Positions 10,917-22,810 of a stretch of 39,714 nt of DNA are shown piece by piece. The notes under the pieces were generated by a model, which worked only from the letters and a program-made list of their open reading frames with translations, did no database searches and had not been told where the DNA came from. The DNA lies in the NCBI GenBank assembly GCA_016882545.1, contig VGPW01000007.1:1-39714 (forward strand), in the 5' to 3' direction. Every line of letters begins with the position of its first letter. Position 1 is the first letter of the stretch. The stretch comes from Cyanobacteria bacterium M_surface_10_m2_179. Lineage in GTDB: Bacteria > Cyanobacteriota > Cyanobacteriia > PCC-6307 > Cyanobiaceae. Both the position numbers and the translations under genes were made by a program.

Positions 10917-12085
10917 GCACCACCCCTCCATCGCCGCTGCGTTTGCTGGTGTTCGCCCCGTCGCGGCGGCGGGCTTCCGAAACCTTCATCCGCGCCAACC
11001 TGCGCGGCTTGCCCTGCAGCACCACGGTGTATTGCGGCGATGAGTGGCCCTGGCGCGGCCCGCCGTTGCGGCTGGCCTACGGCCTGGCGGTGGGGGTGAG
11101 CAAACTCCTCGATCGCTGCGGCTGGCAGCGAGCGGCCAGCTGGTTGCCCAGCCTGGTGGCCACCTGGATCTGCCGTCACGAGCGCCCTTCGCTGGTGCTG
11201 GCGGAATTCGGCTTTCATGCGGTGCGGATCATGGAGCTGGTGCCGGCCACCGGTTTGCCGCTGGTGGTGCATTTCCGCGGTGCTGACGCCTCCTCCCAGC
11301 GTTATCTGGGACGCCTCTCCCACCGCTACCGGCGCCTGCTGGCTCTGGCATCGGCAGTGGTGGTGAAGTGCGAACCGATGGCGGCGCGTCTGCGGCAGCT
11401 GGAGCCGCCCCGGCCCTCGCCCCTGCCGCTGCTGGTGAGCCCTTCCGGCGCCAACGCTGAGCTGTTTGGTGGCGGCGCGCCTGCCGCGGCGGCGCCTTGC
11501 TTCCTCGCGGTGGGGCGGTTCGTGGCCAAGAAAGGTCCGTTGATCACCTTGGAGGCGTTCGCGATCGCTGCCCGCACCCGCCCCGCGCTGCAGCTGGTGA
11601 TGGTGGGCGAGGGGCCGTTGCTCGAGCCTGCGCGTCGCCGGGCCGTGGAGTTGGGTGTGGCCGAGCGCGTGCAGTTCGCTGGGGTTGAACCGCCGCCGCA
11701 GATCGCCGTACGCCTGCGCCACTGCCGCGGCTTTGTGCAGCACTCGCTCACCGGCCCGGATGGTGATCAGGAGGGGTCGCCGGTGGCCGTGATGGAGGCC
11801 CAGCTCAGTGGCGTCCCGGTGGTGGCCACCCGCCATGCCGGCATTCCGGAGGTGGTGCTCGATGGCCACAGCGGTCTGCTGGTGGAGGAGGGCGATGGCG
11901 TGGCCATGGCGGAGGCGATCGGTCGGCTGGCTGATGATCCGGCCCTGGCCGCTCGCCTGGGGGCAGCGGGGCGCGCCCGGGCTCTGGAGCAGTTCACCGT
12001 GACCCACCATCTCCGGGCCCTGATGGATCTGTTCCAGCGTGTGGCAGCCATGCCGATGAACAGCAGCGATACCCTGCCTCGATGA
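10913..12085 (+). CDS. Glycosyltransferase family 4 (WcaL/AmsK-like)
   Basis: This product of about 390 aa has N-terminal VVHFRGADASSQRYL and C-terminal DGDQEGSPVAVMEAQLSGVP, with the E-x7-E pair at Glu287 and Glu295, then VVATRHAGIPEVV. That combination resembles colanic-acid and amylovoran-type GT4 enzymes (WcaL/AmsK). I chose the ATG at 10913 because it makes an ATGA overlap with the preceding stop, as at the other junctions here; an in-frame GTG at 10901 would lengthen the protein by four residues. Bases 11561-11568 are one of the few HIP1 octamers seen. The stop overlaps the pcrA start by 4 bases. Confidence 0.86.
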   Translation: MSTTPPSPLRLLVFAPSRRRASETFIRANLRGLPCSTTVYCGDEWPWRGPPLRLAYGLAVGVSKLLDRCGWQRAASWLPSLVATWICRHERPSLVLAEFGFHAVRIMELVPATGLPLVVHFRGADASSQRYLGRLSHRYRRLLALASAVVVKCEPMAARLRQLEPPRPSPLPLLVSPSGANAELFGGGAPAAAAPCFLAVGRFVAKKGPLITLEAFAIAARTRPALQLVMVGEGPLLEPARRRAVELGVAERVQFAGVEPPPQIAVRLRHCRGFVQHSLTGPDGDQEGSPVAVMEAQLSGVPVVATRHAGIPEVVLDGHSGLLVEEGDGVAMAEAIGRLADDPALAARLGAAGRARALEQFTVTHHLRALMDLFQRVAAMPMNSSDTLPR

Positions 12086-14478
12086 GCTTTCTGGCCGGCC
12101 TCAACGACGCGCAGCGACAGGCGGTGGACCACCACACCGGGCCGCTACTGGTAGTGGCTGGGGCAGGCAGCGGTAAAACGCGGGCGCTCACCCACCGCAT
12201 CGCCCATCTGATCGGCCAGCACGGTGTGGATCCGGCCGAGTTGCTGGCGGTGACCTTCACCAACAAGGCCGCCCGCGAGATGAAGGAGCGGCTGGAGCTG
12301 CTGCTGGCCCAGAAGCTTGCCCAGAGCCAGTTCGGCCAGCCCTGGAGCACCCTGCCGCCGGTGGAACAGCGCCAGCTGCGTTCGCGTATTTACCGCGAGG
12401 TGATCAAGGACCTCTGGATCGGCACCTTCCACGCCCTGTTTGCGCGGCTGCTGCGCTTCGACATCGATAAGTTCCGCGATCCCGAGGGGCTGAATTGGAC
12501 GCGGCAGTTTTCGATCTACGACGAGGGGGACACCCAGAGCCTGGTGAAGGAGATCGTGACCCAGGAGCTGGGCCTCGATCCGAAGCGGTTCGAACCCAAG
12601 AAGGTTCGCTGGGCGATCAGCAATGCCAAGAACCAGGGCTGGATGCCTGAGCAGCTGGAGGCCGATGCCGGTGGTCAGCGCGGCAAGTTAATGGCGGAGA
12701 CGTATCGGCGCTATCGGCGAGCCCTGGCCGCCAACAACGCGCTCGACTTCGACGATCTGTTGCTGTTACCGGTGCAGTTGCTGCGCCAAAACGAGCAGGT
12801 TCGCCACTACTGGCACCGCCGCTTTCGCCACGTGTTGGTGGATGAATACCAGGACACCAACCGCACGCAATACGAACTGATCAAACTGCTTGTGACCGAT
12901 GGGCGGGATCCGGAGACCTTCGACGACTGGAACGGTCGATCGGTGTTTGTGGTGGGTGATGCCGACCAGAGCATCTACAGCTTCCGCGCCGCCGACTTCA
13001 CGATCCTGATGGGCTTTCAGGACGACTTCGGTGATGGTGCACCCGACGACGCCACCCGCACGATGGTGAAGCTGGAGGAGAACTACCGCTCCACCGCCAC
13101 GATTCTCGAGGCCGCCAACGCCCTGATCGCCAACAACACTGAGCGGATCGACAAAATCCTGCGCCCCACCCGCGGCGAGGGTGAGCTGATCACCGTGACC
13201 CGCTGCGACGACGAGATCGCCGAGGCGGAGGCCGTGGTGCACCGCATGCGCATGCTCGATGCCGCCCACCCCGATCTGCGCTGGGGGGATATGGCGGTGC
13301 TGTATCGCACCAATGCGCAGTCGCGGGCGATGGAGGAGTCGCTGGTGCGCTGGGGTATCCCCTACATCGTGGTGGGCGGCCTGCGTTTCTACGACCGGCG
13401 CGAGATCAAGGACGTGCTCGCCTACCTCAAGCTGCTAGTGAATCCAGCCGACACGGTGAGCCTGCTGCGGGTGCTCAACGTTCCGAAGCGCGGCATCGGC
13501 AAGACCACGATCGAGCGGCTCACGGATGCGGCCAATCAGCTGGGCATTCCGCTCTGGGAGGTGGTGCGCGACCCCGAAGCCGTGCGCAGCCTCGGCGGCC
13601 GATCCGCCAAGGGCCTGCTGCAGTTCTGCGAGTTGATCAACACCCTGCAGGTGCGGTTGGAGCAGGCGCCTCCTTCGGAATTGGTGCAGCTGGTGATGGA
13701 GCAAAGCGGCTATCTGGCGGAGCTGATCGCCACCGGCACCGATGAGGCGGAAGACCGCCGCCGCAACCTCAATGAGCTCGTGAACGCCGCCCTGCAATAC
13801 CAGGAGGAGAATGATGAGGGATCCCTGGAGGATTTCCTGGCCTCCAGTGCGCTGGCCAGCGACGCCGACAGCAAGGACACGGAACAGGATCGCGTCACCC
13901 TGATGACGCTCCACGCCAGCAAGGGGCTCGAGTTCCCCGTGGTGTTTCTGGTGGGCATGGAGCAGGGGCTGTTCCCCAGCTACCGCTCGCTGGAGGATCC
14001 GGCGGCGATGGAGGAGGAGCGGCGTCTCTGTTATGTGGGCATCACCCGCGCCAAGGAGCGCTTGTTTCTCTCCCATGCCAGCGAACGTCGTCTCTGGGGC
14101 GGCATGCGTGAGCCGGCGGTGCCCTCGGTGTTTCTCTCGGAATTACCGGAGGCGCTCGTGCAGGGTGATGTGCCCCGCAGCGGCGGTGCTGCGATCCGCC
14201 GTGAGCAGCGCCTGGATCGGCTCACCCGAGTCGACCGCGACGAGAGCCTGCGCACCCAGGCGGGAGGTGCTTCGGGCGCTCCGGCTAACGCGGTGCGCCG
14301 CCGGGCGGCGGGCAAGGCCTGGGCTGTGGGTGATCGGCTGCTGCACAGCTCCTTTGGAGAAGGGCAGGTGACCCACCTGTTTGGCAGCGGCGAGAAGATC
14401 TCGATCGCCGTGAAGTTTGAGGGGATGGGGCCAAAGATCCTCGATCCCCGCCTGGCACCGATCGAGCCGCTGGCCTGA
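12082..14478 (+). CDS. pcrA: UvrD/PcrA-type superfamily 1 DNA helicase
   Basis: The 798-aa protein is an ATP-dependent 3'-5' DNA helicase of the UvrD/PcrA/Rep family, acting in nucleotide excision repair, removal of stalled RNA polymerase and control of recombination. Motif I is AGAGSGKT (26-33, Lys32); motif II is VDEYQDTN (Asp254, Glu255); motif III is GDADQSIYSFRAAD. Later motifs LEENYRS, TLHASKGLEFPVVF and YVGITRAKERL are intact. The C-terminal AVGDRLLHSSFGEGQV region matches the small Tudor-like domain through which PcrA/UvrD contact RNA polymerase. Its ATG lies inside the stop of the upstream glycosyltransferase (4-nt overlap), and its stop abuts the convergent sulfotransferase stop with no gap. 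Confidence 0.94.
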   Translation: MSFLAGLNDAQRQAVDHHTGPLLVVAGAGSGKTRALTHRIAHLIGQHGVDPAELLAVTFTNKAAREMKERLELLLAQKLAQSQFGQPWSTLPPVEQRQLRSRIYREVIKDLWIGTFHALFARLLRFDIDKFRDPEGLNWTRQFSIYDEGDTQSLVKEIVTQELGLDPKRFEPKKVRWAISNAKNQGWMPEQLEADAGGQRGKLMAETYRRYRRALAANNALDFDDLLLLPVQLLRQNEQVRHYWHRRFRHVLVDEYQDTNRTQYELIKLLVTDGRDPETFDDWNGRSVFVVGDADQSIYSFRAADFTILMGFQDDFGDGAPDDATRTMVKLEENYRSTATILEAANALIANNTERIDKILRPTRGEGELITVTRCDDEIAEAEAVVHRMRMLDAAHPDLRWGDMAVLYRTNAQSRAMEESLVRWGIPYIVVGGLRFYDRREIKDVLAYLKLLVNPADTVSLLRVLNVPKRGIGKTTIERLTDAANQLGIPLWEVVRDPEAVRSLGGRSAKGLLQFCELINTLQVRLEQAPPSELVQLVMEQSGYLAELIATGTDEAEDRRRNLNELVNAALQYQEENDEGSLEDFLASSALASDADSKDTEQDRVTLMTLHASKGLEFPVVFLVGMEQGLFPSYRSLEDPAAMEEERRLCYVGITRAKERLFLSHASERRLWGGMREPAVPSVFLSELPEALVQGDVPRSGGAAIRREQRLDRLTRVDRDESLRTQAGGASGAPANAVRRRAAGKAWAVGDRLLHSSFGEGQVTHLFGSGEKISIAVKFEGMGPKILDPRLAPIEPLA

Positions 14479-15362
14479 TTAACGCCGGCACCAGCGATGG
14501 GCTGTGGGCCAGAGGCTGGCCAGATTGGCCTCGGGACAATGCTGCTCCACAGCCGCATAGTTGGCGGCTTGCCAGTGTCCCAAGGCGTCGAGCACATCGT
14601 CGGGGACCGTGGTGGAGGTTCGACTGCGGTTCACCTGTTCATCCCAGTTGGGTTCGCGGTAGGGAATTCTCAAGGCACAGCAGAGTGCGCCATAGGTGTC
14701 TGGAGTGAACAGGGTTTCGTAAAAAGCGATGAAGCAGTTGTTGAGGCCGAAGGCTTCATTAAGCTCGGTCAATGTGTGTGCGTAGTTGCCACGCAGCTCG
14801 GCGCCGCGTGGGCGCTGGCTGCCCAGTTTGCGCAGGGCTGCCACTTCTGTTGCCGCATCGCGCCGACCCGATTTGCGGCACTTCATGCGTTGTTTGGAAA
14901 TCAACCGTTCAATCGGATCGCGCATCAGAAACACAGGGCAAACCCTGATGCCACGCTGTTCAAACTGCTCGCGAATGCTGTGCAACGCGCTGGCGGGCAA
15001 GGCGGCATAGGAGGGGTGATGTCACCCGTGAGTGCAATGCCAGGTCGTTGCAGGATGGTATGAAAATAGTTGTAATAGCGGGCTGGATCACCCATCAGCC
15101 AGCGCCGTCTGAGGCTGCGTGGGCCGAAGGCCCAGCGTCTGCCGCGGCCGTAGTTGGCGAATCCATCCACGTGCAGAGCGTCGTGAATGTGATACTCCTT
15201 CAGAAAACCAAAATGCGCATCATTCCGCTGGTTGAGTTGTTGGTGCAGCCAGGATGTGCCGGCTTTCTGTGCACCAACGCCCAGCAGAAAGGTGCCGGCG
15301 TTTCTGCTGTTGGATCGGGGATCCAGGTTGCATGAATCCGAGAGATGGTCGGGTCCTGGCAT
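14479..15362 (-). pseudogene. Sulfotransferase interrupted by a one-base frameshift
   Basis: Two reading frames together make one sulfotransferase of about 294 aa. The first, from the ATG at 15362, carries the PAPS 5'-phosphosulfate loop GVGAQKAGTSWL (Lys33 to Trp38) and reads correctly to GDITP. The second, ending at 14479, resumes with YAALPASALHSIREQF and carries the 3'-phosphate motif FLMRDPIERLISKQRM. The join is at the four-base G run 15013-15016 (C run on the coding strand). One extra C would restore GDITPSYAALP, the normal family sequence. The cause may be a real mutation, a sequencing error in a homopolymer, or less likely frameshifting during translation. GC is low (bases 15181-15240 have 26 G+C of 60). 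The stop directly abuts that of pcrA. Confidence 0.8.
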
Positions 15363-15407
15363 CGCTTCAGCCTACGGTTGCAGCATGGTTGGGGTTGTTT
15401 CCTGCTG

Positions 15408-16274
15408 ATGGGTCTGCCCAAGTTGCTGTTGATCCGTGGTCTCGGCCACAGCGGCACCACGATTTTGGATCTCGCTTTGGGAGCGCATCCGCAGATCGTG
15501 GGTTTGGGAGAAGCCGCGCGCATCCTGGAGAAACCCAGGCCGGGTGAGGAGCGGCGGGGGCCTGCCCGGTTGAGGGCGGAGCTGCGGCACCAGCGGCTGT
15601 GCACCTGCGGGCTCACGGCGGCCTGTTGCCCCGTGTGGGGCGAGCTGCTCACCTGGCTTCCCCAGCACGATCACCTGCCTCTGCCCAGCAAGTTCGAACG
15701 GCTGTGCCAGGCGGTGCAAGCCCATGCCCATCAACAGGCTGAGCCGGTGGAGTGGCTGGTGGATTCGTATCAGGACGACCTGGTGCTGCCGTTCGCCGCG
15801 CTGCCGGAGCTGGATGTGCGGGTGCTGTTTCTGGTGCGCGATGTGCGCTCCTGGGTGCATTCCCGGGCCCGCGATGGCCGCAACAAGGGCAAGGCCCTGC
15901 CGGCGACTCGTGCCTTCCTGCGCTGGGTTCGCCTGAATCAGCGCTTCGAGGCCAAGTTGCGGCAGTGCGGCAAGCCTCTGTTTCACCTCGGCTATGAGGA
16001 GCTAGCGCTCGCTCCGGAGCGCGCCTTGAGCAGTGTGTGCAGCTGGCTGGGGTTGGAGTTCTCGGCCGCGATGCTCACGCCGGGCCCCTGCTCCACCAGC
16101 CACATCCTGGCGGGCAATCGCGTGCGCTTCGATCCCACCCGAAGCCGCGCCATTCGCTACGACGCCTCCTGGATGCAGGGCTCTGGCTGGCCTGCCTCCA
16201 TCGCCATGGGCTGGCCCGGCCTGGCGGCACTCAACCGCCGCCTTGTTTATGCCAACGGCTGGCTCAGTAAGTGA
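15408..16274 (+). CDS. Sulfotransferase
   Basis: The 288-aa product begins MGLPKLLLIRGLGHSGTTIL. Its PAPS loop is GLGHSGTTIL (11-20) and its 3'-phosphate motif is FLVRDVRSWVHSRARDG (Arg144, Ser at the expected spacing). Between them is a cysteine group, C65-T-C67 with C73-C74 and PVW, which resembles the C-x-CG...CPxW segment of many bacterial sulfotransferases. The ATG at 15408 is chosen because it starts directly before the core strand; the frame extends to 15345 without family similarity. It is divergent from the frameshifted sulfotransferase with 45 bases between starts, so the two could share a regulatory region. Its last 28 bases overlap the convergent unidentified gene. The substrate is probably the surface glycan. 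Confidence 0.78.
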   Translation: MGLPKLLLIRGLGHSGTTILDLALGAHPQIVGLGEAARILEKPRPGEERRGPARLRAELRHQRLCTCGLTAACCPVWGELLTWLPQHDHLPLPSKFERLCQAVQAHAHQQAEPVEWLVDSYQDDLVLPFAALPELDVRVLFLVRDVRSWVHSRARDGRNKGKALPATRAFLRWVRLNQRFEAKLRQCGKPLFHLGYEELALAPERALSSVCSWLGLEFSAAMLTPGPCSTSHILAGNRVRFDPTRSRAIRYDASWMQGSGWPASIAMGWPGLAALNRRLVYANGWLSK

Positions 16275-17347
16275 CGCAAAGCCTGCGGGTCGCGGTGGTG
16301 CGTGAAGCCCCAGTAGGGCTCCAGCAGCTCGCGCAGGCGGCCTGTTGGCTCTGACGCTGAGTCGGCCTGCTGCAACAGCTGCTGCAGTGCTGTGCTCAAC
16401 CGCTCGCGCTCCTGCCATTCCGCCGCTTCGCGAGCTGCCTGCTCGGCAGTGAGTGCTGAGAGGTCTTGCTGTGCCTGCTGATGGAGCCAGTGGATGGATT
16501 TGTCCAGGGCCACGGCGTAGCCCAGGTGGGTGCCGAAGGCGTTGCTGGCCAGCCCGTCGCTGAGCTCCAGCAGCGTTCGCAGGCTGTCGAGAAACCAGGG
16601 GTTGGAGCGGTGGCCGTTGCAGGCCACGATCCAGGAGGGGGGCAGGGGCAGAGCAGGCGGATCCTGCCAATGGCGCAGCCAGATCACGCTGCGATAGCCC
16701 TGGCGCTGGCTCAGGGCCTCGACGGCCGCGATGCAGGCCTGGTCATCGCTGTGCCGCTGCACTCGGTCCCAGCTGTGAGCCAGCACCACCAGCAGCGTTT
16801 TGCCCAGCTGCTGCCGGCGTTCCGCCAGCTCAGCGTCCTCCAGCAGCGGCCTGGCATAGAGGATCCAGGGCCCGATCGCTTGGGCCGCGCAGCCATAGCG
16901 CTCCTGCAGCCAGCGGGCCCGGAGGGGCCCCATGCACAGGTAGCCGCCACGGGCCCAGGGGCGCGGTGTTTCGAACTGCGCCTCCTCAGACACCTTCAAG
17001 CCGTGCTCCAGCAGGAAGGGCAGCGGTCTGCCCACCAGGGGCAGTTCCGCATGGCGTTTGAGCTGGATGTCGTGGCCGTAATGGTGGGAGGAGCCTTCCC
17101 GTTCGCGCTGGCTCGGGTTGAAAAAGGCCGGTAGGCCAGCGGTGCTCCGGAACTGGCCGCCGCTCCACACATCGGCCACAACCTCGGGGTGCAGCGGCGC
17201 CTGTCGCCAGGCCTGCTGCACCAGGCCCCGATAGGCAGCGAGCCCCTGCCACTCGCTGGGTTCGGTCCGCTCCCCGAGGAGCTGTCGCCGCCAGCTGCGT
17301 TGGTGCCAGCCCAGCTCCCGCCTCAGCCGGCGCCACCGCTCAAGCAT
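16247..17347 (-). CDS. Unidentified protein overlapping kdsA; possible glycan transferase
   Basis: I do not recognise this 366-aa protein with confidence. It is soluble, without signal peptide or membrane helix. The N-terminus is Arg/Trp-rich ([20 protein letters not shown]); the middle has Rossmann-like strands ([37 protein letters not shown]). A later segment, [20 protein letters not shown], resembles the donor-site loop of GT-B capsule enzymes, where a conserved Ser/Asn and G-T/S-H-x-G occur. That comparison is inference. The gene starts with ATG 17347 inside the 3' end of kdsA (8-base overlap), so the two are almost certainly co-translated, which suggests a Kdo-related or surface-glycan role. 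Its 3' end overlaps the convergent sulfotransferase by 28 bases. Confidence 0.7.
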
Positions 17348-18149
17348 GGCTGGGGGCGAGGCTGCTGCCGACGGCGCCGCGGATGTCCAGTAGCTGCCGC
17401 AGCAACGGCTCCAGTCGGTGCAGCGGCACCATGTTCGGCCCGTCGCTCAGGGCCTGATCCGGATCGGGGTGCACCTCCATGAACAGGCCGTCCACCCCCA
17501 CGGCCACGGCGGCCCTGGCCAGGGGTGCCACGAACTCCCGCTGCCCGCCTGTGCTCGTGCCCTTGCCGCCGGGCTGTTGCACCGAATGGGTGGCATCAAA
17601 GATCACCGGGCAGCCCAGTTCTTGAAGCTGCGGCAGCCCTCGGTAATCCACCACTAGCGTGTTGTAACCGAAGCTGCTGCCCCGCTCGGTGAGCCACAGG
17701 TTCTCCACGCCGGCCTCCCGCAGCTTCTTCACCACTTGCGCCATGTCCCACGGGGCGAGGAACTGGCCCTTCTTCACGTTGATCACTTTGTCGGTGCCGC
17801 GCGTGGCCTCTGCGGCCGCGAGCAACAGATCGGTCTGGCGGCAGAGAAAGGCCGGGATCTGCAGCACATCCACCACCTCGGCCACCGGCGCGGCCTGCTG
17901 GCTTTCGTGAATGTCGGTGAGCACCGGCAGCCCCAGCTGTTGCTTCACCTCCGCCAGCACCGCCAGGCCCTCCTCCACGCCGGGGCCGCGGAACGATCCA
18001 CCCGAGCTGCGGTTGGCCTTGTCGTAGCTGGCCTTGAACACGTAGTGAATGCCGAGGCGATCGGTGATCGCCTTCACCTCCTCCGCCACCTGCAGCGCCA
18101 GATCGCGGCTCTCGATCACACAGGGGCCGGCGATCAGGGTGAGGGGCAT
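17340..18149 (-). CDS. kdsA: 3-deoxy-8-phosphooctulonate (Kdo-8-P) synthase
   Basis: The 269-aa enzyme condenses arabinose-5-phosphate with phosphoenolpyruvate to Kdo-8-phosphate. Family landmarks are [39 protein letters not shown], the KKGQF loop and [12 protein letters not shown]. Cys10 in AGPC, together with the His of DATH, the Glu of MEVH and the Asp of SDGPN, forms the set used by the metal-dependent class; the metal-independent E. coli enzyme has Asn in place of that Cys. The ATG at 18149 starts directly at the first beta strand. It is divergent from the HIT gene (65 bases) and its 3' end overlaps the unidentified gene by 8 bases. Confidence 0.95.
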
Positions 18150-18214
18150 GGGGTGGGGCCTTACGACGGGTCAATCCTGTCCCATCAGACTGCCGGGAGT
18201 CGGAATGGGGTTGT
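18150..18214. promoter_or_regulatory. Divergent spacer between kdsA and the HIT gene
   Basis: These 65 bases separate the divergent starts of kdsA and the HIT-kdsB unit, so they must carry promoter elements for both halves of the Kdo locus. No clear -10/-35 boxes or operator are visible by eye; the call rests on gene orientation. Confidence 0.35.
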
Positions 18215-18676
18215 GTGCAGTCTTGCGGCGTTTGCCACCACCACAGCGACCCCGAGCAGCGGCGTTTGTATGAAATCGGTCGCGACGCTCGCTGGCTGCT
18301 GCGTCATCACCCCGATCCGGCGCCCCTGCCCGGTTGGCTGTTGCTGGATGCATTGCGCCATCTGGGCGGCCCGCTTGAGTTCACGGCTCAGGAAGCCGCG
18401 GAGTGGGGGCGGGTTGTGCAACATGGTTCGCAGCTGGTGCAGCAGCTCAGCGGCTGCGAGCGTGTGTATGCCATCGCCTTTGGCGAGGGTGCGCGTCATC
18501 TGCATCTGCACCTAATTCCGCGCTTTGCCGCTGATCCCGACACCGAGGCTTGGCGGGTGGCGGATCTCTATCGGGCCGTGGCCCAGGGCCGAGCCGCGGC
18601 CGCCGATCCTGCGGCTGTGGCAGCTCTGGTGGAGCGGGGGCGGCCGTTGTGGAGCCACTTACGCTCCCAGTCATGA
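18215..18676 (+). CDS. HIT-family nucleotide hydrolase/transferase
   Basis: The 153-aa protein carries the histidine-triad active site RHLHLHLIPR, with His95, His97 and His99. HIT enzymes hydrolyse or transfer nucleoside phosphates such as ApnA or AMP conjugates. The N-terminal CGVCHHH is a Cys-x-x-Cys, often a zinc site in this family. The GTG at 18215 is the best start, giving MQSCGVC as in related HIT proteins that begin with a C-x-x-C segment. It is the first gene of a plus-strand unit; its stop overlaps the next start by 4 bases (ATGA). A link to CMP-Kdo formation is suggested only by position. Confidence 0.82.
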   Translation: MQSCGVCHHHSDPEQRRLYEIGRDARWLLRHHPDPAPLPGWLLLDALRHLGGPLEFTAQEAAEWGRVVQHGSQLVQQLSGCERVYAIAFGEGARHLHLHLIPRFAADPDTEAWRVADLYRAVAQGRAAAADPAAVAALVERGRPLWSHLRSQS

Positions 18677-19371
18677 CCCAGCCCATCCCGATCTTCATCG
18701 GCTACGACCCGCGTGAACGGGCCGCCACGAATGTGCTGATCGACAGCCTGTATCAGCACACCAGTGTTCCGCTGGCGATCACGCCGTTGGTGACGCCGCA
18801 GCTGGAGGGCCAGGGGCTCTACCGCCGCGAACGGGATCCGAAGCAGAGCACGGCTTTCTCGTTCACCCGCTTTCTGGTGCCCCATCTGATGGGCTACCAG
18901 GGCTGGGCCATCTTTATGGACTGCGACATGCTCGCCCGCGGTGATATCGCCGCATTGTGGGCTCAGCGGGATGAGCAGTTCGCTGTGCAGTGCGTGCAGC
19001 ACGAGCATGAGCCCGGCGAAACGGTGAAGTTCCTGGGTGAGGTGCAGAGCGCTTATCCCAAGAAAAACTGGAGTTCGCTGATGCTGCTGAACTGCAGCCG
19101 CTGCACGGCCCTCAGCGTGGATTACGTGAACAGCGCCACGGGCCTGGAGCTGCATCGCTTCCATTGGCTGGCGGGTGATCACGAGATCGGTGCCCTGCCG
19201 GAGGGTTGGAACCATCTGGTGGCGGTGCAGGATCCCGCCAAGGCCGAAGGTGCGCCGCTGTTGCACTGGACCCTTGGGGGCCCTTGGTTTCGTGAGCAGC
19301 GCACTATGGGCGAGGGGCTGGCGGCCGAGTGGTTTGCCGCCCGCGATGACGCCTTCCGCCTGTGGGACTGA
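18673..19371 (+). CDS. GT-A type glycosyltransferase (GT8-like), coupled to kdsB
   Basis: The 232-aa product begins MTQPIPIFIGYDPRERAATN. It contains AIFMDCDMLARGDIAAL, with the metal-binding Asp83-Cys-Asp85, and later NWSSLMLLNCSRC and LHWTLGGPWF, a layout typical of GT8-like transferases that keep both substrate ends in one domain. The donor is unknown. The ATG at 18673 overlaps the HIT stop, and its own stop TGA shares one base with the kdsB ATG. The very tight coupling to kdsB makes a role in building or using Kdo glycan plausible by inference. No membrane segment or signal peptide is seen. Confidence 0.75.
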   Translation: MTQPIPIFIGYDPRERAATNVLIDSLYQHTSVPLAITPLVTPQLEGQGLYRRERDPKQSTAFSFTRFLVPHLMGYQGWAIFMDCDMLARGDIAALWAQRDEQFAVQCVQHEHEPGETVKFLGEVQSAYPKKNWSSLMLLNCSRCTALSVDYVNSATGLELHRFHWLAGDHEIGALPEGWNHLVAVQDPAKAEGAPLLHWTLGGPWFREQRTMGEGLAAEWFAARDDAFRLWD

Positions 19372-20144
19372 TGCAGAGCGTTGTTGCTGTTCCGGCTCGA
19401 TTGGAGTCGAGCCGCTTGCCGGGCAAGGTGTTGGCAGATATCGGTGGCAAGCCGATGCTGCAGCGGGTGTTGGAGCGTTGTGCCGAGGCCACAACTCCGG
19501 CGGCGGTCGTGCTCTGCACCGACAGCCAGGACCTGGTGGATCGAGCCGCGGCCTGGGGGTTTGCCGCACTGATCACCAGCGCCAACTGCGCCTCCGGCAG
19601 TGAGCGGATCGCCTCGGTGGTGGACCAGTTGGTGGCAAGGGCGGGCGGCTCCAGCGCCGACACCCTGATCATCAATGTGCAGGGCGATCAGCCCTTCATC
19701 GATCCGCAGGTGATCGAGGCGATGGCCGGTGAATTCGCCGAGCGTTGCCCCACCCCCGAGGTGCTCACCCCCGTGTATCGGATGAGCCCCGACAAGGTCC
19801 ACAACCCCAACGTGGTGAAAACCCTGCTGGCTGCCGATGGCCGGGCCCTCTACTTCTCCCGTTCGGCGGTGCCGCATGTGCGCGGGGTGGAGCCGGAGCA
19901 CTGGCATGCCCACACCACCTATTGGGGGCATGTGGGCATCTATGGCTACCGCGCTGATGTGCTGCAGCGCTGGCAGCAGCTGCCCCATTCACCCCTCGAG
20001 CAGATCGAGAAGCTCGAGCAGCTGCGGTTGATCGAGGCGGGTATTCAGATCGGCACCTTCCCGGTGGAGGGTGAATCGTTATCGGTGGACACAGCCGAGC
20101 AGCTCGACGAGGCTCGCGCCATTGCTGCCGGACTGGCGGCCTGA
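19371..20144 (+). CDS. kdsB: CMP-Kdo synthetase (3-deoxy-manno-octulosonate cytidylyltransferase)
   Basis: The 257-aa enzyme activates Kdo with CTP to CMP-Kdo, the donor used by Kdo transferases. The nucleotide-binding N-terminus reads VVAVPARLESSRLPGKVL, and the conserved VQGDQPFIDPQVIEAM, YFSRSAVPHVR and the HVGIYGYR-type segment are present. Length matches the family. The ATG at 19371 shares one base with the upstream TGA; a start at 19362 would add three residues and cut deeper into the upstream gene. It converges on kdsC with only 6 bases between stops, which leaves no room for a separate terminator. Confidence 0.95.
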   Translation: MQSVVAVPARLESSRLPGKVLADIGGKPMLQRVLERCAEATTPAAVVLCTDSQDLVDRAAAWGFAALITSANCASGSERIASVVDQLVARAGGSSADTLIINVQGDQPFIDPQVIEAMAGEFAERCPTPEVLTPVYRMSPDKVHNPNVVKTLLAADGRALYFSRSAVPHVRGVEPEHWHAHTTYWGHVGIYGYRADVLQRWQQLPHSPLEQIEKLEQLRLIEAGIQIGTFPVEGESLSVDTAEQLDEARAIAAGLAA

Positions 20145-20150
20145 GGACCG

Positions 20151-20723
20151 TTAGTCGTTGCGGTCGCGCCAGCCTTCGCGGCTCAGCTGCTGCCAGTGCC
20201 CGTGCACCCGCAGCAGCCGCTCCGCCAGCTCTCGCACCGCCCCGTGACCGCCGGGTCGAAGCAGCACGGCATCGGCCCGGCGTCGCAGGGGCAGTGCCGC
20301 ATCGGCGGTGGCCACCAGCAGCCCCACCGCACCCTGCAGCGCCAGGTCGTTCACGTCGTCACCCACGAAGGCGATCTGTTCCGGCGTCACGTCGAGCTGC
20401 TCCCGCAGGCTTGCCAGGGCGAGCGGTTTGTCCTTGGCGCCCACCAGGCAGTGGCGGATGCCCAGCTGCTGGGCGCGCACCTCGGTGGCGCCGCCGCGTC
20501 CGCCGCTGAGAAAGGCCACCTCCAGGCCGGCGTGCTGCAGCAGGCGGATGCCCAGCCCATCGCGCACATCGAAGCGTTTGATCAGCTCACCCGCCGGGCC
20601 ATGCCAAAGCCCGCCATCGGTGAGCACGCCATCCACATCCAGCACCACCACCTGGATGGGCCGCAAACGCCGGCGTTGCCACCACCACATCCAGCGCCAC
20701 CAGAGCCTGCGCAGCCGCTGCAT
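20151..20723 (-). CDS. kdsC: Kdo-8-phosphate phosphatase (HAD family)
   Basis: The 190-aa product is a C0-type HAD phosphatase that removes phosphate from Kdo-8-P. The nucleophile motif is VVLDVDGVLTDGGL with Asp29 and Asp31; motif III Lys is in VGAKDKP and motif IV is FVGDDVNDLAL. The first 20 residues are extraordinary for this family, rich in Trp and Arg (LWWRWMWWWQRRRLR). The ATG at 20723 shares one base with the kdsD stop (TGATG), which supports it; starting at the internal ATG 20690 would still include most tryptophans. It follows kdsD in the same transcript and converges on kdsB. Confidence 0.9.
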   Translation of the reverse strand: MQRLRRLWWRWMWWWQRRRLRPIQVVVLDVDGVLTDGGLWHGPAGELIKRFDVRDGLGIRLLQHAGLEVAFLSGGRGGATEVRAQQLGIRHCLVGAKDKPLALASLREQLDVTPEQIAFVGDDVNDLALQGAVGLLVATADAALPLRRRADAVLLRPGGHGAVRELAERLLRVHGHWQQLSREGWRDRND

Positions 20724-21709
20724 CACGCCAAACCCGCCTGCACCAGATCGTGCAGACGCAGCAGGCCCTGCATCTGGTGGGCGTCGTTCACCACCGGCAG
20801 CACGCCGATCGCCTTGCGGCGATTGCGCTCCATGCAGGCGATCGCGTCGATGGCCAGGGTGGTGGCGGTCACGGTGATCGGGTCGGCTGTCATCAGATCC
20901 GCGGCGGTGAGCGTGCTCCATTCCGCCGGGCCATGGCTTTGCAGCGCCCGGCGCAGGTCGCCATCGGTGATCAGGCCTTGGATGCGGCTGGGGTCGCCGG
21001 GGCTGGCGATCCAGCAGGCGCCCACGCCATCGGCGGTGAGGTGGGCGATCACCTCGGGTAGGGGTGCCGCCGCCGCGAGCGGCTCCAGCCGTGACGCCGG
21101 CACCATCAGATCCGCGGCGGTGAGGGTGAGCTGTTTGCCCAGCGAACCGGCCGGGTGGTTGAGGGCGAAGTCTTCCGGCGACACACCGCGCCGCTCCATC
21201 CACACCGCCGCCAGCGCATCACCGATGGCCATCGCCACCGCCGTGCTGGCGGTGGGGGCCAGGTTGAGCGGGCACACCTCCCGGTCCACCGAGCCATCCA
21301 GCACCACATCACAACCGCGGGCCAGGCTGGAGTTCACCCGACCCACCAGGGCGATGCGAGCGGTGCCGCGGCGTTTGAGGTGGGGGAGGATCTCCAGCAG
21401 CTCCTGGGTTTCGCCGCTGTTGGAGAGCAGCAGCGTGAGGTCATCCGCCGCGATCACCCCCAGGTCGCCATGCAGGGCATCGAGGGGGTTGAGGTAGATC
21501 GCCATCACGCCGATCGAGGAGAACGTGGCGGCGATCTTGCGCGCCACGATGCCGCTCTTGCCCACGCCCGTGATCACGAGCTTGGCCCGGTTGTCGGCGC
21601 AACGATCGAGCAGGGCTAGGGCCTCCTCCACCTGCTTGGGTGCCAGGCGCTCCGCTGTGGCTGCAATAGCGGCGGCCTCTTCCTGCAGGCAACGGGTGAG
21701 GGCGGACAC
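20723..21709 (-). CDS. kdsD: Arabinose-5-phosphate isomerase (KdsD/KpsF)
   Basis: The 328-aa enzyme interconverts ribulose-5-P and arabinose-5-P, the first committed step towards Kdo. Residues 30-170 form a SIS domain with ITGVGKSGIVARKIAATFSS and LLLSNSGETQELLEIL. Residues 200-328 contain two CBS modules, beginning LTAADLMVPA and LTAADLMTADP and ending GLLRLHDLVQAGLA. SIS plus paired CBS is the standard KdsD/KpsF layout. The ATG at 21709 starts the helical N-terminus expected for the family. The stop shares one base with the kdsC start, so isomerase and phosphatase are translationally coupled. The upstream gap to galE is 45 bases on the same strand, so galE-encoding transcripts may start elsewhere. 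Confidence 0.95.
   Translation of the reverse strand: MSALTRCLQEEAAAIAATAERLAPKQVEEALALLDRCADNRAKLVITGVGKSGIVARKIAATFSSIGVMAIYLNPLDALHGDLGVIAADDLTLLLSNSGETQELLEILPHLKRRGTARIALVGRVNSSLARGCDVVLDGSVDREVCPLNLAPTASTAVAMAIGDALAAVWMERRGVSPEDFALNHPAGSLGKQLTLTAADLMVPASRLEPLAAAAPLPEVIAHLTADGVGACWIASPGDPSRIQGLITDGDLRRALQSHGPAEWSTLTAADLMTADPITVTATTLAIDAIACMERNRRKAIGVLPVVNDAHQMQGLLRLHDLVQAGLA
20891..20911. repeat. 21-nt exact direct repeat in kdsD, copy 1 (copy 2 at 21104-21124)
   Basis: The same 21 bases occur at 20891-20911 and 21104-21124, 213 bases apart. Each copy encodes the peptide LTAADLM at the start of one CBS module. The protein-level similarity of CBS repeats explains part of it, but identity at all synonymous positions suggests recent duplication or gene conversion between the two modules. 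Confidence 0.8.
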
Positions 21710-21754
21710 GCAGCTGCGGTGTGGGGTTGCGCTGATTCTCCCCCAGCTCCGGCG

Positions 21755-22810
21755 CTAGCCCGCTGGCGGAGCGCTGGCGTAGCCCTCCGGGTTGGCCTGC
21801 TGCCAGGCCCAGCCGTCGCGGCAGATCTCCGGCAGGCCGCGGCGGGTGCGCCAGCCCAGGCGTGCGCTGGCCTGCGTGGGATCGGCCACCGTGGTGGCGG
21901 CATCGCCGGGGCGGCGCTCCACCAGGGCGTAGGGCACGCGGCGGCCGCTGGCGCTCTCCAGCGCCCGCACCACCTCCAGCACCGAGTGGCCCTGGCCGCT
22001 GCCCAGATTGAGCGTGAGCAGTTGGGGCGGTTCGCCCAGCAGGGTGGTGAGGGCGGCGGCATGGCCCTCCGCCAGATCCATCACGTGGATGTAGTCGCGC
22101 ACGCCGGTGCCATCAGATGTGGGCCAGTCGCTGCCGAATACCTGCAGCTGCTGGCGCCGTCCCACGGCCACCTGGGTGATGAAGGGGAACAGGTTGTTGG
22201 GGATGCCGTTGGGGTCTTCGCCGATGCGCCCGCTCGGGTGGGCGCCCACCGGGTTGAAGTAGCGCAGGCTGGCGATGCGCCATCCGGGCTCGCTGGCCGC
22301 CAGATCCGCCAGCAACCGCTCCACCGCCGCCTTGCTGTGGCCGTAGGGATTGATCGGTTGCACCGGCGCTGTTTCGGGGATCGGCACCTGGTCGGGGTAG
22401 CCATAGAGCGTGGCGCTGCTGCTGAACACCAGCGTGCGGCAGCCGGCTACCTGCATCGCCGCCAGCAGCTGGCGCGATCCGGCCACATTCACATCCCAGT
22501 AGCGCAGCGGGTGTTGCACCGATTCGCCCACCGCCTTCAGGCCGGCGAAGTGGATCACAGCATCGATCGAGGCTGCTGTGAAGGCTTGCTGCAGGTCAGC
22601 TGGTTGGCGGATGTCGCCTTGGATCACCCGCAGGCGTTGTTGCTGGGTTGCGGGCGGCAGCTCAGCTAGGGAGGCTACGCGGCGCAGCGCTTCGGGGGAG
22701 CTGTTGCTGAAGTTGTCGAGCACCACCAGGTTGTGGCCCGCTTCCAGCAGCACCAGGCAGGTGTGGCTGCCGATGAAGCCAGCCCCACCGGTGATCAATA
22801 GTGTGGCCAC
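21755..22810 (-). CDS. galE: UDP-glucose 4-epimerase
   Basis: The 351-aa extended short-chain dehydrogenase interconverts UDP-glucose and UDP-galactose. The NAD-binding loop is TGGAGFIGSH (Gly8-Gly14). The catalytic triad is visible as SSSATLYG and PYGHSKAAVE (Tyr-x3-Lys). HFAGLKAVGES and NPVGAHPSGRIGEDPNGIPNNL are GalE-specific and separate it from the decarboxylase and 4-epimerase encoded at 25560 and 26530. The start is ATG 22810, divergent from hisS with 67 bases between. It probably provides UDP-Gal for the surface glycan. The last codons and stop contain two copies of CGCTGGCG three bases apart, a minor oddity. Confidence 0.95.
   Translation of the reverse strand: MATLLITGGAGFIGSHTCLVLLEAGHNLVVLDNFSNSSPEALRRVASLAELPPATQQQRLRVIQGDIRQPADLQQAFTAASIDAVIHFAGLKAVGESVQHPLRYWDVNVAGSRQLLAAMQVAGCRTLVFSSSATLYGYPDQVPIPETAPVQPINPYGHSKAAVERLLADLAASEPGWRIASLRYFNPVGAHPSGRIGEDPNGIPNNLFPFITQVAVGRRQQLQVFGSDWPTSDGTGVRDYIHVMDLAEGHAAALTTLLGEPPQLLTLNLGSGQGHSVLEVVRALESASGRRVPYALVERRPGDAATTVADPTQASARLGWRTRRGLPEICRDGWAWQQANPEGYASAPPAG

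Follow-up and report, generated by a model that had tools for sequence, protein, structure and literature searches.

Sulfotransferase genes of cyanobacteria lie mostly within extracellular-polysaccharide clusters, as described in PMC8205485, and the neighbourhood of the gene analysed here is consistent with that pattern. XssA and XssE of the synechan cluster in Synechocystis 6803, presented in the same paper, are likewise cyanobacterial sulfotransferases encoded among glycosyltransferase and polysaccharide genes. Unlike these two, our gene is broken, and its likeness to them is one of gene setting. Our literature searches returned no paper on the split sulfotransferase gene and none that fully matched the topics of picocyanobacterial sulfotransferase islands or Cyanobium pseudogenes.

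The gene also departs from PAPS-dependent sulfotransferases in general, since its two binding sites are found in different reading frames. Our preferred reading, to which we give a probability of about 0.56, takes the locus for an accessory gene that was inactivated recently through a real loss of one base; we infer that living cells, and not just the assembly, carry this loss. The weights given to a real loss and to its main rival, an error or a minor allele, were set by judgement and not calculated.

A sulfotransferase gene in two reading frames

The window, by which we mean the whole stretch of DNA analysed (39,714 bases), is the complete contig C7, one of the 127 contigs of a 1.92-Mb draft genome with an estimated completeness of 85.65%. 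Phycobilisome linkers encoded in this genome identify its source as a cyanobacterium. On its minus strand, positions 15362-14479 carry a single sulfotransferase gene that is cut by a one-base frame change at 15013-15016. The N-terminal part (15015-15362, minus strand, 116 aa) begins with the ATG at 15362 and ends in GDIT, while the C-terminal part (14479-15012, minus strand, 177 aa plus the stop codon at 14479-14481) starts with SYAALP in another frame. Between them lies a minus-strand four-base run (15013-15016; plus-strand sequence GGGG, with A at 15012 and T at 15017 on either side), at which relatives have one more base in a proline codon. The frame that opens at the ATG therefore leaves the correct register after GDITP and closes at a stop codon at 14925-14927, giving 145 aa (14925-15362, minus strand). 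A frame-tracking codon-usage HMM trained on the source genome, to which the position was not supplied, placed the switch at 15014/15015, and neither part contains a further stop or frame change.

In every intact relative examined, a single proline codon links the two halves into one continuous stretch, and the junction reads GDITPSY or nearly so. Reading frames, HMM and relatives all agree with the proposal of the earlier note that a one-base contraction at 15010-15018 splits a sulfotransferase gene. Its placement of the join between GDITP and YAALP also holds, except that the two are not directly adjacent: a serine stands between them, in keeping with the family motif. The missing base is the third of the junction proline codon; as read from run lengths, 24 of the 36 intact sites have CCC there and 12 have a different proline codon (the 36 sites include the more distant paralogue L039; three further paralogues are without the motif). 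Because this codon is CCC in only part of the intact sites, contraction of a C run is the likely origin of the break, as judged from the aligned sequences, without being forced or proven. On this detail the earlier note was firmer than the sequences warrant.

Both motifs expected of a PAPS-dependent enzyme are preserved, one on each side of the break, as the earlier note had recognized, and their invariant residues are kept. The N-terminal part contains the loop GAQKAGTSWL (15246-15275, minus strand), which we take to be the 5'-phosphosulfate-binding motif; the residues G, Q, K, G, W and L of this loop do not vary among 35 intact relatives and are retained here. The C-terminal part contains the RDP...S strand-helix element FLMRDPIERLIS (14896-14931, minus strand), presumably the 3'-phosphate-binding motif, whose R, D, P, E, R and S are invariant in the same 35 relatives and occur in the window only in the other frame. 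With the frame changing at 15014/15015, the two sites do not come together in one translated protein.

Assignment to the sulfotransferases draws on the intact relatives, of which 28 of 35 match PF13469 (Sulfotransfer_3) and 18 of 35 match PF00685 (Sulfotransfer_1) at E values up to 0.01; in the first family member, the better of the two Pfam scores falls below its curated cut-off. Neither half of the window copy alone reached the cut-off of any Pfam family, and a PDB sequence search gave no useful match for either half alone. A profile of the 35 intact relatives, by comparison, found the solved sulfotransferase 3rnl in the PDB (E 0.0028). We also examined a predicted model of the intact relative L009, not of the window copy (mean pLDDT 85.5). 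Its PDB matches at E up to 0.001 number 18; every one is a sulfotransferase, although the TM-scores are modest (0.31-0.64). Among these were the PAPS-dependent sulfotransferase 3rnl from Alicyclobacillus acidocaldarius (TM 0.58/0.64), tyrosylprotein sulfotransferases and heparan 3-O-sulfotransferases. In the model, the junction follows the strand at residues 97-101; it comes after the 5' loop and ahead of the RDP...S site, and neither half is expected on this basis to bind PAPS fully.

The stop codon of the split gene abuts that of a convergent neighbour, the UvrD/PcrA helicase gene (12082-14478, plus strand), and on its other side lies a divergent gene for a second, intact sulfotransferase of the Sulfotransfer_3 type (15345-16274, plus strand). 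Genes nearby encode glycosyltransferases, an O-antigen ligase, an ABC exporter, a DAHP-synthetase-I family protein, a cytidylyltransferase, a UDP-sugar dehydrogenase and epimerases, a content that marks the surroundings as a surface-polysaccharide region. The substrate was probably a surface polysaccharide.

Family members and origin of the gene

Of 300 genomes from the same family, 46 contain a match to the N-terminal part, the best with 64% identity across 97 aa; for the C-terminal part the count is 54 of 400, with 49-56% identity in the best near relatives. Identities of 64% and 55% for the two halves in their best relatives show that the reading as one gene is not a matter of chance. We counted 42 gene copies in 40 of the 400 genomes, the window copy included: 41 with at least 37% identity in the C-terminal part, plus that of G283, whose C-terminal part is 32% identical and whose N-terminal part shares 52% identity with the window copy and 90% with an intact member. 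More distant paralogues, mostly at 22-34% identity, were excluded. A comparison of relatives for the two halves as one protein had been suggested as a check, and 36 of the 42 copies indeed form one open frame through the junction; five are broken and one (G318) is cut by a contig end. The window copy therefore combines intact homologues with a disabling lesion at 15013-15016, as a pseudogene would.

Broken copies other than that of the window make up 4 of the remaining 41 and carry stops or frame changes: G140 (L037:8146-8994), G093 (L048:8909-9757), G283 (L038:3550-4370) and G303 (L133:3-818). The G093 copy contains TGA and TAG in a genome that is one contig and 99% complete, and the copies in G140, G283 and G303 have several lesions each. 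In G140, a base is lost at the same codon as in the window, together with in-frame stops and a second frame change. All four thus bear two or more lesions, against one in the window copy. Judged by sequence, the gene family is one that decays repeatedly outside the source genome.

Compositional and distributional evidence bears on where the gene came from. Its GC3 is 0.63 in the N-terminal and 0.69 in the C-terminal part, versus 0.82-0.87 in five neighbours. A search of 24 congeners gave no match above 31% identity to the split gene, which is also absent from all 17 congener stretches behind uvrD, each covering 1.8 to 8 kb downstream. Directly behind uvrD, congener G019 has the second sulfotransferase, and G001 has instead a homologue of a window gene at 16247-17347. 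A second intact copy in the source genome was not found, each half having a single match in the 85.65% complete assembly. A scan of genome contigs with the C-terminal part confirmed nothing. Across the wider phylum, 11 of 292 genomes match and, among the matches listed (the source genome included), all belong to the same family. The base composition and the lack of a close copy in congeners mark the split gene as accessory and suggest horizontal acquisition, probably from another genus.

Mobile elements were considered as sources. The N-terminal part is matched by 6 of 72,556 plasmid records, all under 60% identity, and a phage origin was rejected, the C-terminal part having no match in 50,697 phage records or in viral contigs.

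The interval from uvrD to the conserved genes downstream (window 14479-22669) is variable among congeners and rich in sugar and sulfotransferase genes. Within it, the minus-strand gene at 16247-17347 encodes a 366-aa protein without a Pfam match, 66% identical to the one directly behind uvrD in G001.

Age and cause of the break

Across the 50 alignment columns that are invariant in the 35 intact members, the window copy keeps 48. One exception is the junction proline, a residue outside both halves; the other is an F-to-L change. Intact members that are equally isolated, with a best identity of 55-56% to any relative, show 0, 2 and 4 private changes, so the window copy displays no excess. In the phylogenetic tree it is sister to the intact G203 copy (support 0.954), and its branch, 0.547, has about the same drawn length as the G203 branch. 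With a single lesion, invariant residues kept and no excess in rate, the gene, if dead, died recently, and an error accounts for these features equally well.

To place the break in the context of its assembly, frame switches were scanned in the window and twenty 20-kb stretches of the source genome (439,714 bases) with a detector that recovers 124 of 150 planted one-base losses. Inspected by eye, the candidates were mostly ordinary overlaps between genes or weak signals. Clean single-base switches emerged in three genes of these 440 kb: the sulfotransferase and, convincing by homology, a cation-efflux transporter that switches twice and a phycobilisome rod linker. The break had been called unusually clean, a description that does not survive the finding of two other such genes in the same 440 kb. 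In the transporter (L123:10739-11690), the first switch lies near a six-C run, and close congener copies are open frames of 317-332 aa. The linker (L130:26-1149, contig C9), split by one base, is a single frame in its three best congener matches at 93-95% identity, and it overlaps L139/L190 on contig C69. At another site, L143:8925-9816, what seems to be an inner portion of photosystem II protein D1 follows unrelated sequence in another frame, perhaps as a truncated copy or a misjoin.

The scan bears directly on the main rival, in which sequencing or assembly introduced the loss, or the draft consensus caught the allele of a minor strain, and the gene is intact in most cells. This is a serious contender, if one that we would bet against. 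The overlap of C9 and C69 (about 400 bp, the first 399 bases) contains four mismatches and a single one-base gap, this gap being the linker frame break, and the C69 version stays in frame; at least one single-base loss in this assembly is thus contradicted by the assembly itself. Comparison of 61 contig ends, one of them masked, gave six overlaps that total 1109 bp and contain eight mismatches and one gap, which suggests a mixed population or low-quality ends. Recent inactivation is weakened by the draft state of the assembly, by this demonstrable single-base conflict in a conserved gene, and also by the two or more lesions of every other broken family copy, which make a one-lesion state the rarer one. 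Against an error, detected switches are infrequent, with 4 in 439,714 bases or about one every 110 kb, and at that rate an error would be expected in a given 0.9-kb gene less than 1% of the time. The linker conflict, moreover, lies within 400 bp of a contig end, whereas the sulfotransferase break is about 15 kb inside its contig. The split gene is also of the sort that dies: accessory, foreign in composition and often broken in relatives.

Three further explanations invoke the junction itself, and all are improbable. The codon after GDIT could be a mutational hotspot at which this surface sulfotransferase is repeatedly inactivated, in the source genome and independently in G140, with populations mixing on and off alleles; this we consider a long shot. 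A phase-variable switch, in which slippage of the run would alternately enable and disable the sulfotransferase among the cells of a population, is if anything slightly less credible. Surface-sugar enzymes are typical targets of phase variation, the G140 copy lost a base at the same codon, and a five-C run occurs in 17 of 36 intact relatives. Reported contingency tracts, however, are usually longer than four or five bases. The window run of four is short by this measure, is exceeded by a T5 within the same gene, and is one of 3466 runs of exactly four in 440 kb of the source genome, where another 1161 are longer. Nor is the run conserved, its length being 5, 4, 3 and 2 in 17, 6, 7 and 6 of the 36 intact sites; the proposal of phase variation through a slippery tract consequently finds no support. 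The in-frame stops and second frame change of the G140 copy mean that no one-base change would switch it on, identifying it as a decayed gene and not an "off" state. Least credible is programmed -1 ribosomal frameshifting that joins the halves. A P-site slip from CCT to CCC would yield the correct frame, yet the site has no XXXYYYZ slippery heptamer, the 86-nt segment that starts at the run is no more stably folded than shuffled sequences (z -0.08) and so offers no downstream stimulator, and all intact relatives encode the protein without recoding.

Of the three origins that the earlier note had left side by side, a freshly dead gene therefore fits best, a sequencing error is the live second, and phase variation is not supported. 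Under recent inactivation, a PAPS-dependent sulfotransferase gene would have entered the lineage between uvrD and the second sulfotransferase gene, inside the surface-polysaccharide region, and its enzyme probably sulfated a surface polysaccharide before the break. The loss of one base in the codon after GDIT would then have split the gene in two. Translation from the only good start, the ATG at 15362, would now give a 145-residue product with the 5'-PAPS loop and without the 3'-phosphate site; lacking that site, the product should be inactive.

Consequences for annotation and gene loss

The split sulfotransferase is an ordinary event, either a young pseudogene or a draft-assembly error, and its main relevance is to annotation. 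As each half falls below the Pfam cut-offs, automatic annotation would probably report two hypothetical proteins and overlook a surface-modifying enzyme. Should the break be an error, it calls for caution when draft genomes are used to infer gene loss. A real loss would make the locus an accessory surface-sugar gene caught at its first lesion, in a family that is often broken.
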